DNA of 64,000 bases, taken from the NCBI RefSeq assembly GCF_900100715.1, contig NZ_FNCA01000004.1, positions 248,001 through 312,000 of the forward strand. Direction: 5' to 3'. A program made the position numbers and the translations under genes. Numbering within the stretch: position 1 is the stretch's first letter; each line of letters opens with the position of its first letter. Positions 21,074 through 30,390 of this stretch are shown here, one piece after another. Source of the DNA: Methanolobus vulcani (GTDB taxonomy: Archaea > Halobacteriota > Methanosarcinia > Methanosarcinales > Methanosarcinaceae). The notes beneath the pieces were generated by a model. It was not told where the DNA came from. It saw only the letters and a list, made by a program, of their open reading frames with translations, and ran no database searches.

Positions 21074-21859
21074 CTATAGCTCTATTATCGGTTGTGACCT
21101 CAGAAGATAGTATTCGAACAATTCACTGCCCCACTTCAGTGCAGCCTCATTACAGAATACAAGGTCTTTGCGGTCATAATTCCCACTCCTGTCAAAAAGG
21201 CACATCATTAGAAACTGATCAGTTATGAAGAGCGATGCAAGTTTCAGGTCATCAGGATATACGAAAAGTTTTCCTCTTTTACTCCCAAGGAAGACCTCTA
21301 GCTCATGCTGATAGTCCTGTATATGTTTTTTTAGAGCGGGTTCGGACATAATTATCAAAACATCGATACCTTTTTCGACCAGATCCAATAGAAACGAAGG
21401 AAAAGCAGGATGGAGAAAAGAGGTTGCTCCCATTATAGAACTAGATCCAAGTGCATTTTCGACCAGTTGCTTATTAAGCTCGAACATATCATTCAGGTCA
21501 GGCTCCAATATATGACAACTATGCAACTCTCTTATTCTTTTGAGAAGATGAAGAGGAACCGGACTTATGTCATGTTCTGTCCAGTATTGATGGTTCCCCT
21601 CAAGAACTGATATTGTACCCATCAGAGGCAGCATATCCTCTACGATAATCTCACCAATTTCAGTGAGTCTGCAGATATCTTTAGTCTTGACCATAAGGCC
21701 ATTTTCGGATAGTATCTTTATTTGAGGGAGTATTGCATGGCGGGTGACATCAAGAATCTCAAGAATCTCATCCATTTTACGCGGACCATTTTTAAGAAGC
21801 AACAATAAATTTTTTCTTTTTTCCGACATGAAGATAACATCTGTAAGTGAACGTCGCAT
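21074..21859 (-). CDS. FilR1/Msr-type winged-helix transcriptional regulator (first paralogue)
   Basis: A 261-residue methanogen regulator. The N-terminal winged helix-turn-helix covers about 1-75 (SEKRKNLLLLLKNGPRKMDE, then LDVTRHAILPQIKILSENGL). It is followed by the middle domain seen in FilR1-like and DUF1724 proteins. Family members in Methanosarcina (the Msr proteins) control methyltransferase genes for methylotrophic growth, but the target of this copy is unknown. A close paralogue lies at 26684-27484, with matching blocks such as VIFxSEKRK and LxWxxELFEYYL. It faces away from nearby operons on both sides. Confidence 0.85.
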   Translation of the reverse strand: MRRSLTDVIFMSEKRKNLLLLLKNGPRKMDEILEILDVTRHAILPQIKILSENGLMVKTKDICRLTEIGEIIVEDMLPLMGTISVLEGNHQYWTEHDISPVPLHLLKRIRELHSCHILEPDLNDMFELNKQLVENALGSSSIMGATSFLHPAFPSFLLDLVEKGIDVLIIMSEPALKKHIQDYQHELEVFLGSKRGKLFVYPDDLKLASLFITDQFLMMCLFDRSGNYDRKDLVFCNEAALKWGSELFEYYLLRSQPIIEL

Positions 21860-26683: not shown

Positions 26684-27484
26684 ATGAAGAAAAAGCTAAT
26701 CGAGGTGATATTTTCTTCTGAAAAAAGAAAAAGCACCCTTATGCTATTACAGGATGGACCTAAAGAAATAGATTTCATCCTCAAAAACCTGAAAACAACA
26801 AGGAATGCTTTGCTTGCTCAGATCAAGATGCTGGAAGAATATAATCTTGTCAAGCATATTGATGATACATATGAACTAACAAAAATAGGCCAGCTAATCG
26901 TTCACGACATGTCGCCACTACTAAAAACAATTAATGCGCTGGACAGTGATATGGATTACTGGGGAACACACAACACAGACTTTATACCTCCAGAGCTATT
27001 TGAGAGAATTGGTGAACTTGGTGAATGTGAAGTCGTAGATCTGTCCCTTACGGATTCGTATCAACTTAATTCATCCGTTGTAAAAACTACATTCCTATCT
27101 GATTCATTTTTTGTAATTACATCTTTTTTTCATCCGGACTATCCCCGCGTATTCGATGAAATGACAAAAAAGAACATCAGATTATGTATAATTGTTTCTG
27201 AAGATGTCCTTAAAAGAATACAGAATCAACACTCATCACATTTTACAAAATTACTGAATCGAGATTTGTTTAATCTATATGTATATCAGAAAGACATGCA
27301 ATTTCAGGTTCTTGCACACAACAACCATTGTTTCCTACTTCGCCTTTTGAATAATAGTGGGAATATCGATATAAAACATTTACTCACTTTTAATCCATCT
27401 GCACTTGAATGGGCACAGGAGATTTTTGAATATTATTTAAAAGATGCAATTTCAATTTCAGAACTGCAAACTCTTCAGACATAG
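26684..27484 (+). CDS. FilR1/Msr-type winged-helix transcriptional regulator (second paralogue)
   Basis: A 266-residue regulator paralogous to the one at 21074-21859. The N-terminal winged helix is SEKRKSTLMLLQDGPKEIDF with recognition helix region LKTTRNALLAQIKMLEEYNL. The middle and C-terminal region is the FilR1-like/DUF1724 domain, ending with the shared LEWAQEIFEYYLKDA. These proteins are restricted mostly to methanogens and relatives. The effector is unknown. It stands alone between tRNA-Ala and a 330-bp gap. Confidence 0.85.
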   Translation: MKKKLIEVIFSSEKRKSTLMLLQDGPKEIDFILKNLKTTRNALLAQIKMLEEYNLVKHIDDTYELTKIGQLIVHDMSPLLKTINALDSDMDYWGTHNTDFIPPELFERIGELGECEVVDLSLTDSYQLNSSVVKTTFLSDSFFVITSFFHPDYPRVFDEMTKKNIRLCIIVSEDVLKRIQNQHSSHFTKLLNRDLFNLYVYQKDMQFQVLAHNNHCFLLRLLNNSGNIDIKHLLTFNPSALEWAQEIFEYYLKDAISISELQTLQT

Positions 27485-28289: not shown

Positions 28290-29600
28290 ATGGAAATAAC
28301 AAGAGCTTTTGCCATTGTAATATTGCTGATGGCAATACTTGTAAACATTGCAAATGCAGTATCCACTGAAGATTGTAAAAAGTGCCACATGGACGAATAT
28401 GAAGCATGGAGCTCATCGGTCCATTACGACAATGATGGAATCATTTCCGGCAAACCAGGGCCTGAGGCCTGTATTTTTTGCCATTTCGGAAATACCCCGC
28501 GACTTTACAGCATAATGTATGGAGAAGTCTCGGCTGAATCGCCTGAATGTGAAATATGTCACAGACCTCCTGCTGAGGGATTCACAACCCATATCGTAAC
28601 CCCTTCTGAAGCAGTTCCACCACTTGATCTGTCGGCAGAGATTTGTGAAGATTGCCATACAAAACCTCACCATATCATCTATGAAGAGTGGAACGAATAC
28701 AACAATAGCGACTATGATCCTGTTTCAATGAAAAGCCACTCAGAGCCCGCTGAAACTGAAACTTACATGCAGAATAATAGTTATGAATCCAGGATCACCT
28801 GCGTAATGTGCCATGAACCACATAGTGCAAAACTTAGAATGGAAACCCAGGAACTTTGTGAAAGCTGCCATAGTTCTAAGCTTTCAAAGGAAACATATAA
28901 AGACAACAATTCAGAATTTTACGGTGGGCCTCAGTGGGAAATGTACAACGGGTCCATCTTTACAAATGATGTACATGCAGTGAACCTGAAATGTGTGGAC
29001 TGTCATATGGCAACAATAACCGATAAAACCGGAGAGAAGAAATTGGTCACAGGTCATTCATTCAACTTTGATCCGGTGTTACTTTCTGATCCTTATTCCG
29101 GAAACATATGCAAGAAATGTCATGTAACAGGACATGATAAGATACCTGAAAGTGGTGATTGTAACGACTGTCATGAAGTTTCTCTTTCTAATATAACATC
29201 TAGCAGACAGGAAATAACCGCAAGTAAACTTCATGAACTTGAAATATTACAGAAAAACGCCAGTCATGCCCTGTTTTTGTCAGACTTCAATGAAAGTCAG
29301 GATAAACTAATGGCAGACTATAATGAAGCGGTTTCCTATATTGAGTTTGTAAAAGCTGATGGCAGTCTTGGAATGCATAATGAAAAAAGAACCAGAGAAT
29401 ATCTGGAAAAAGCAGAGATCCTGCTTCGCTCAATAACAGGAGAAGAAAGTACTGATATTGGTATTGAAGAAACAGAAATTGCAGTGAATGAAAAGCAAAA
29501 AGAAAAGACAGTACCAAGTGTTGGATTTGTAATATCACTCTTTATAATCTCTGTAACTGCAATTGCCCTATCAATATCAAAAAAGAAAAGAGGAAAATAA
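28290..29600 (+). CDS. Nine-heme cytochrome c with signal peptide and C-terminal membrane anchor
   Basis: A 436-residue exported protein. Residues 1-24 form a hydrophobic signal sequence (MEITRAFAIVILLMAILVNI). Nine CxxCH heme sites follow: CKKCH, CIFCH, CEICH, CEDCH, CVMCH, CESCH, CVDCH, CKKCH and CNDCH. After the hemes comes a helical region with FVKADGSLGMHN, reminiscent of the C-terminal bundle of multiheme nitrite-reductase/hydroxylamine-oxidoreductase-type cytochromes, then a single transmembrane segment (about 410-428) and a KKKRGK tail. It would sit on the outer face of the membrane. Heme count differs from the seven-heme MmcA of Methanosarcina acetivorans. Substrate or partner unknown; electron transfer to or from outside acceptors is plausible. 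Confidence 0.9.
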   Translation: MEITRAFAIVILLMAILVNIANAVSTEDCKKCHMDEYEAWSSSVHYDNDGIISGKPGPEACIFCHFGNTPRLYSIMYGEVSAESPECEICHRPPAEGFTTHIVTPSEAVPPLDLSAEICEDCHTKPHHIIYEEWNEYNNSDYDPVSMKSHSEPAETETYMQNNSYESRITCVMCHEPHSAKLRMETQELCESCHSSKLSKETYKDNNSEFYGGPQWEMYNGSIFTNDVHAVNLKCVDCHMATITDKTGEKKLVTGHSFNFDPVLLSDPYSGNICKKCHVTGHDKIPESGDCNDCHEVSLSNITSSRQEITASKLHELEILQKNASHALFLSDFNESQDKLMADYNEAVSYIEFVKADGSLGMHNEKRTREYLEKAEILLRSITGEESTDIGIEETEIAVNEKQKEKTVPSVGFVISLFIISVTAIALSISKKKRGK

Positions 29601-29610
29601 TTAATTTGAT

Positions 29611-30390
29611 CTATTCTGAATCATTAGCCTGTTTTTCGGACTCAGGTTCAAGGGCAGAATATATGCTGCTGACACCTTCCATGACCTTGAAGCCTTTTGC
29701 GGTTATCATGTAGTCACCTCTTTCGTGCCTTTGTATTATCATACCCTTTTCAACAAGTTTTTGAAGATGGAACAAGAGATTTCCACCCCTAAGACCAGTT
29801 AGACTTGAAAGAGCAGAAAAACTCTTAGTTTCAGCGGAAATTGCCTTAAGAATCTCAAATCGCTTCTGATGACAGAGGGGTTCAAGTATATCAGTGACAA
29901 CCTCTTCAGGAGGAAGCTGGCTAAGATCCTGGCGTTTATCCTTATTGGTCTCATAGATACGCATGGAACGCATGAGAGTTACCTGTCTTGAGAGAATGTC
30001 AGATGCTTCTGCAAAACAGATATCACATTTATCGTAAGGCACCTTTGTGCGGAGCTGTTTTATTTCAAGGCGATTTTCCTCTATTGCAGCTTCATTTACA
30101 TTACCACCCCTGATAAGACCTGCATTCTTTTCCAGAATATTGGAGATCAGACCTTTGCATTCATTTCTCATCTCACATTTTTTGACCATATTTTTTTCAA
30201 GACCTTTTCCGGCATCTTCCATTAAATGACGAACAATTACCCCAGAGTAATCGTTTTTCACATTACTTACCATCATATCGAGATGCTGATGATTTGATGA
30301 ATCCATGAAAGAACGTATGTCACTCTGAATATCGGAAAGCATGTGCTTGATATCAGAAAGGTCTAAGTTGAAGTCATTTTCCTGGGCCAT
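29611..30390 (-). CDS. ArsR-like winged-helix regulator with cysteine-containing N-terminal domain
   Basis: A 259-residue regulator with an unusual layout. A helical N-terminal part contains cysteines in KKCEMRNECKG and YDKCDICFAEA (about residues 70-80 and 118-128), which could bind a metal or sense redox state. The DNA-binding winged helix is at the C-terminus (about 168-240; PLCHQKRFEILKAIS, then LSSLTGLRGGNLLFHLQKLV). It converges on the nine-heme cytochrome gene (10-bp gap) and diverges from the MTH865-like gene, with a nested set of inverted repeats between. I do not recognise a named family beyond ArsR-like. Confidence 0.8.
   Translation of the reverse strand: MAQENDFNLDLSDIKHMLSDIQSDIRSFMDSSNHQHLDMMVSNVKNDYSGVIVRHLMEDAGKGLEKNMVKKCEMRNECKGLISNILEKNAGLIRGGNVNEAAIEENRLEIKQLRTKVPYDKCDICFAEASDILSRQVTLMRSMRIYETNKDKRQDLSQLPPEEVVTDILEPLCHQKRFEILKAISAETKSFSALSSLTGLRGGNLLFHLQKLVEKGMIIQRHERGDYMITAKGFKVMEGVSSIYSALEPESEKQANDSE

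Follow-up and report, generated by a model that had tools for sequence, protein, structure and literature searches.

The multiheme cytochrome c described here, encoded in the window (the whole stretch of 64,000 nucleotides of Methanolobus vulcani DNA that was analyzed), is predicted to be a variant of the OcwA/NrfA type from which a catalytic heme has been pruned. Comparison with relatives and solved structures makes it rather likely that this is a surface-anchored cytochrome of the OcwA/NrfA superfamily that works as an OcwA/MccA-like oxidoreductase or conduit, with heme 5 lost and heme 2 open. If so, methanogens gain a surface cytochrome other than MmcA and, via the orthologs, a candidate pyrrolysine cytochrome. 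The relevant features are collected in Table 1.

Table 1. Positions of the cytochrome gene, its predicted protein features and related genes; coordinates with a locus prefix refer to that locus, all others to the window.
Feature	Position	Strand	Basis
Multiheme cytochrome c gene, OcwA/NrfA superfamily	28290..29600	+	436 aa, ATG start, nine CxxCH
Signal peptide, residues 1-23, ending NIANA	28290..28358	+	Hydropathy; Ala23 invariant across 17 aligned homologs
Heme 1 CKKCH, OcwA heme 1	28374..28388	+	Motif and profile alignment
Heme 2 CIFCH, OcwA heme 2 (distal site open in OcwA)	28470..28484	+	Motif and profile alignment
Met76 codon ATG; TAG in this column in some relatives	28515..28517	+	Alignment, 18 rows
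Heme 3 CEICH	28548..28562	+	Motif and profile alignment
Heme 4 CEDCH	28644..28658	+	Motif and profile alignment
His127-His128, equivalent to OcwA HH281/282 over heme 2; kept in 5/5 of clade	28668..28673	+	Alignment
Deletion site: about 36 residues of homologs gone, including the CxxCK heme (OcwA heme 5/NrfA heme 1)	28755..28784	+	Alignment, motif table
CVMCH, OcwA heme 6	28800..28814	+	Alignment
CESCH, OcwA heme 7	28857..28871	+	Alignment
Gly212-Gly213, replacing His-His of the heme-5 pocket (OcwA HH380/381; NrfA HPxxE His)	28923..28928	+	Alignment
CVDCH, OcwA heme 8	28992..29006	+	Alignment
Inserted heme segment CKKCHVTGHDKIPESGD; shared by 7/7 locus-lineage sequences and by no other family member	29109..29159	+	Alignment, motif table
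CNDCH, OcwA heme 9	29160..29174	+	Alignment
Three C-terminal helices, residues 299-330, 335-360, 365-383	29184..29438	+	AlphaFold2 local pLDDT blocks mostly 52-80; tail aligns with OcwA, NrfA
DGSLGMHN, directly after second C-terminal helix	29358-29381	+	Tail alignment
C-terminal membrane helix 409-429, then basic residues; site of homologs' PGF-CTERM signal, here PSVGF	29514..29576	+	Hydropathy, alignment
Winged-helix regulator, convergent; next gene in most orthologous loci; putative regulator of the cytochrome	29611..30390	-	Domain match, synteny
TAG-bearing genes	L033:10001-11287, L008:901-2268, L009:1471-2838(-), L013:1441-2790(-), L016:895-2415, L018:895-2247		Alignment

Architecture and heme map

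All 18 cysteines of the protein fall within its nine CxxCH motifs, which start at residues 29, 61, 87, 119, 171, 190, 235, 274, and 291. In 5000 residue shuffles the motif occurred 0.03 times on average and at most once, which excludes nine motifs by chance, and Pfam models for Cytochrom_C552 (3.3e-8) and Cytochrome_C7 (2.2e-15) match the sequence. The original prediction of nine such motifs, a signal peptide and a C-terminal membrane helix was borne out with exact coordinates, and its methanogen host was confirmed by a 68%-identical ortholog in Methanolobus bombayensis DSM 7082. The signal peptide and the helix were called by hydropathy alone (N-terminal hydrophobic segment at about residues 6-23); both segments support the extracellular, membrane-anchored location that had been proposed, and function at the cell surface is probable. 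The anchoring mode is less sure given PSVGF in place of PGF: PF18204 (PGF-CTERM) matches the own-genome paralog (9.2e-5) and the homolog L030 (1.6e-8), the Pfam search of the protein itself returned no PF18204 match, and the genome encodes an archaeosortase (4.8e-82). The protein may be held by its own helix instead of by PGF-CTERM processing. A three-helix C-terminus is expected in NrfA-type proteins, and the suggestion of a reductase-type tail held up, with the three helices and DGSLGMHN (residues 357-364; DGSxGxHN in general form) aligning with OcwA, OmhA, MccA, and NrfA. The AlphaFold2 model has a mean pLDDT of 37, from an alignment of two rows (the protein and its M. bombayensis ortholog), so that the C-terminal helices alone are usable, with moderate confidence. 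Low dN/dS values, 0.14-0.17 against the four other orthologs with nine CxxCH motifs and 0.14-0.21 among the five closest orthologs that form this nine-CxxCH clade, argue that the gene is constrained by purifying selection.

Homologs were found in 33 of the 111 genomes of Methanosarcinaceae searched with the protein. Among solved structures, a profile of 17 family members matched 6i5b (4.8e-27), 6qvm (9e-21), and both NrfA 2j7a and MccA 4rkm at 2.7e-12, while the sequence alone gave weaker matches (6qvm 6.8e-7, 6i5b 7.7e-6). The profile match to 6i5b falls in four stretches, three of them significant independently, and the homology extends over hemes 1-4, hemes 6-9, and the helical tail. This entry is listed as “uncharacterized protein”; its HH pairs at chain positions 252/253 and 351/352 match the published OcwA pairs 281/282 and 380/381 after the same shift of 29 residues, which identifies it as OcwA of Thermincola potens, a nonaheme cell-surface terminal reductase (excerpts of PMC6703420). 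On these matches, the protein belongs to an OcwA-like family that is spread across Methanosarcinaceae and includes CxxCK members. Rather than a well-characterized family of different function, the homologs form a recognizable one for which the literature excerpts consulted describe no characterized methanogen member, and a literature search on OcwA and methanogens, conducted outside subscription journals, returned no title or abstract opening describing these cytochromes. An archaeal cluster 1, which may or may not be this family, has been modelled on an octaheme nitrite reductase (excerpts of PMC4429474).

Motifs 1-4 correspond to OcwA hemes 1-4, motifs 5, 6, and 7 to hemes 6, 7, and 8, and motif 9 to heme 9, with motif 8 inserted. 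The two proteins therefore share hemes 1-4 and 6-9 in order, and also the heme-2 HH motif, the DGSxGxHN helical tail and, as far as it can be predicted for the methanogen protein, a surface location; in contrast to OcwA, the protein is archaeal, lacks heme 5 and its HH pocket, has an extra heme before heme 9, and carries a C-terminal membrane anchor. The heme count given in the original prediction is correct, but the telling feature is the lost NrfA-type catalytic heme together with the inserted one, and on this map nine is a coincidence of one heme gained and one lost. In OcwA, HH281/282 sits above the open heme 2 without a ligand role, and heme 5 superimposes on NrfA heme 1 (excerpts of PMC6703420). 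Aligned with OcwA, the heme-2 motif (HH127/128) is present in 5/5 members of the clade; distal-ligand candidates are seven other histidines, invariant in the 17-sequence set, and H282. The second-best profile match, 6qvm, which we take to be the OmhA-type cytochrome of Carboxydothermus ferrireducens with eleven hemes, differs from the protein in its length of 681 aa and its larger number of hemes. MccA (SirA), an octaheme sulfite reductase, has the OcwA heme set without heme 5 (excerpts of PMC6703420), and the motif table gives the methanogen protein the same four plus four hemes. MccA also shares the tail, as DGSWGMH, in addition to its profile match, whereas the protein is far shorter and has one extra heme and another domain architecture. 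Copper at heme 2 is a feature of MccA.

The heme-5 region among relatives

In a tree of 22 rows, CxxCK stands at the heme-5 place in 17/17 others and is absent in 5/5 of the clade to which the protein belongs. These five rows group together exclusively (100/100), with two CxxCK rows as their sister group, and the grouping of all seven is also supported at 100/100; the tree omits the broken L010 and L019 as well as Methanohalophilus, g7, and g9 rows that are redundant (L017, L021, L022, L025, L028, L029, L031, and L032's relatives G017, G023, and G024). The two sister rows (G059 and G043) have ten heme motifs, nine CxxCH plus the CxxCK, and occupy this locus too, flanked by the same neighbors, so that they can be regarded as positional orthologs. 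In a homolog from a different family within the order, nine CxxCH motifs follow the OcwA order, the heme-5 one reading CLKCH, and the protein ends in a PGF tail. Together with the CxxCK of the relatives, this argues that heme 5 is ancestral, and its loss in the five-member clade is the simplest reading.

The pocket facing heme 5 (HH380/381 in OcwA) has become GG, SG, or DG in the clade (5/5) and is RY in the ten-heme orthologs; the same position reads LHPQWEMY in the own-genome paralog and HHPNWEMY in Methanohalophilus members, aligned with QHPEYETW of NrfA. The histidine of the NrfA HPxxE-type motif is catalytic. The CxxCK of the NrfA/ONR nitrite reductases persists in relatives at this locus and in the paralog, which also retains the HPxxE-type histidine, whereas the protein has neither (GGPQWEM at this site). 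Heme 5 and its facing histidine pocket have thus disappeared together in the clade, and nitrite reduction of the NrfA type at heme 5 should have been lost with them. With this site gone and H127-H128 kept, one open site would remain, and the alignment points to heme 2 as this single open and possibly catalytic site, as in MccA.

Heme composition also varies more widely. The paralog (L037:7657-8955; G000 contig 15) encodes 432 aa with eight CxxCH motifs, CVSCK, an NrfA-like HPQWEMY, and a PGF-CTERM tail, and is possibly a nitrite/hydroxylamine reductase in a methanogen. Members from several genera (L032, L024, L030, L011) are without heme 2 and keep CxxCK, and with seven CxxCH plus CxxCK they match octaheme nitrite reductases in heme set; a full NrfA (PF02335, 1.1e-135) occurs elsewhere in the order, in a different family (L038, G181). 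In the scheme proposed by Costa et al., octaheme enzymes descend from a nonaheme ancestor resembling OcwA, with heme 2 lost in HAO and heme 5 lost in MccA (excerpts of PMC6703420). Within this one archaeal family, some relatives lack heme 2, some have all nine heme positions and others ten, and a clade at one syntenic locus has no heme 5. Hemes would therefore be in the course of being lost and gained among close species, which makes the catalytic consequence directly measurable. A search of genome contigs in general returned one close relative and three distant bacterial ones, and a CxxCH pattern scan over the whole genome gave 510 matches, a background too high for listing multiheme genes, so that the tally of such genes is incomplete.

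Within the genus, the gene at this locus is intact in seven and decayed in two (G046, G051) of the 27 genomes searched, and this patchy presence implies that it is dispensable. Its neighbors encode DnaJ/DnaK/GrpE, an ATP-grasp protein, a hydantoinase-type protein, FilR1-type regulators, a winged-helix regulator, a KefC-type antiporter, and a KUP-type K+ transporter. No electron-transfer partner is found among the neighboring genes in the window and the orthologous loci; an operon partner was rejected, these being genes for chaperones, biosynthesis, regulators, and K+ transport. Two FilR1-type regulators flank the region (21074-21859 on the minus strand and 26684-27484 on the plus strand), the second of which has a single match (37% identity) over eight orthologous loci and may accordingly be a recent arrival.

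Proposed function and rival explanations

In the mechanism that we favor, electrons would enter from membrane carriers (at the level of methanophenazine or of MmcA/Rnf), pass along the heme chain and exit at the surface, either by direct contact with an extracellular acceptor or onto a small-molecule ligand of heme 2. Heme 2 is the only heme expected to stay open, in parallel with MccA, which uses heme 2 and lacks heme 5. With this exit route, the protein would work more like OcwA/MccA than like MmcA. The difference in heme count from the seven-heme MmcA, pointed out in the original prediction, is real, since a separate MmcA is encoded next to the rnf genes on another contig. This mmcA (contig 10; 495 aa) has five CxxCH motifs, one Cx3CH, and one Cx4CH and is followed by rnf genes, identified by sequence inspection and by the operon order in excerpts of PMC11024163. 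There, MmcA of Methanosarcina acetivorans is described as a heptaheme protein with Cx3CH/Cx4CH motifs, related to the octaheme tetrathionate reductase (OTR), encoded in the rnf operon and without a membrane helix. Both are multiheme c cytochromes of a methanogen electron chain, but the protein is without the MmcA motif set and is not encoded by the first gene of an rnf operon. That it is nonetheless an ortholog of MmcA or OTR, which are the known multiheme proteins in these Methanosarcinaceae genomes, is exceedingly improbable and was rejected: its own genome carries mmcA beside rnf, and TIGR04315, the model sought for OTR, has no match above cut-off in the genome and does not appear in the protein's list of NCBIfam matches.

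A pure conduit has more to recommend it, and we regard it as a possibility of some weight, although not the expected outcome. All nine hemes would then be bis-His, with H127 or H128 ligating heme 2, and the protein, lacking any catalytic site, would relay electrons that connect carriers in the membrane with minerals, humics, or partner cells. The clade conserves at least nine non-motif histidines (45, 101, 127, 128, 150, 178, 229, 256, 282, 363; each 5/5), the heme-5 site is lost along with its pocket, and MmcA, one heme short of its reductase relative OTR, has been described as an electron conduit (excerpts of PMC11024163). Against this, the ligands of the inserted heme are guesses and the aligned HH pair of OcwA lies over an open heme 2 that it does not ligate (excerpts of PMC6703420), for which reason the all-bis-His arrangement is kept as a rival. 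It is somewhat unlikely that heme 2 serves a detoxifying reductase acting on nitrite, hydroxylamine, or sulfite instead of extracellular electron transfer. Nitrite and hydroxylamine are substrates of OcwA, and in MccA heme 2 is the site for sulfite (excerpts of PMC6703420); the paralog, with CVSCK and HPQWEMY, resembles NrfA (QHPEYETW); however, the clade in question is the one without the NrfA-type site, and no nitrogen or sulfur genes lie next to the gene. Lastly, a relic heading for loss without important function would fit a gene that is missing from most genus genomes, decayed in G046 (three TAA and one TAG) and a pseudogene in G051, but it is made very unlikely by the dN/dS within the clade and by all nine motifs being intact in 5/5 members.

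In-frame TAG codons and a candidate pyrrolysine

Three of the seven intact genes contain an in-frame TAG. It falls in the Met76 column, ten residues ahead of the first cysteine of heme 3 and downstream of the signal peptide, in M. bombayensis (L033), G059 (L008), and G043 (L009), and likewise in three genomes from a second genus (L013, L016, L018); the pseudogene L010 has a TAG in the same column too. Otherwise, across the 18 aligned rows, the column holds ATG in the protein's own gene and three orthologs and GAA or GAG in four group-B rows, and the segment containing it is absent in four rows lacking heme 2. Values of dN/dS are 0.13-0.27 upstream and 0.13-0.31 downstream of the TAG, and 89 copies of 18 neighboring genes at the same eight loci contain no in-frame stops. 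Selection on both sides and stop-free neighbors argue that the codon is read, and translation as pyrrolysine is the simplest reading; suppression by another tRNA is possible. PylS-type matches occur in 110/111 family genomes, 99 of them above cut-off and many of the weaker ones being other synthetases, with G039, G059, G043, G007, G008, and G009 above cut-off.

We tentatively propose a pyrrolysine cytochrome in part of the genus, in which pyrrolysine, encoded in the heme-2/heme-3 linker and placed at or near the heme-2 pocket, may shape the site or serve to bind a substrate resembling an amine or hydroxylamine, and methionine would have replaced it in the window protein with the loss of heme 5. 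If true, this would be an oxidoreductase using the 22nd amino acid outside methylamine methyltransfer. Titles and abstract openings from a literature search on pyrrolysine and multiheme proteins outside subscription journals describe no pyrrolysine cytochrome. One further sequence, L019 (G031, Methanohalophilus group), was not counted, since its TAG lies three columns earlier, at a conserved Trp, and a TGA stands at the CxxCK cysteine, so that we regard this gene as decaying. The second histidine of the heme-2 pair is lost (HE or HG) in all TAG carriers but M. bombayensis; the TAG is possibly linked with heme 2, with few independent events behind it.
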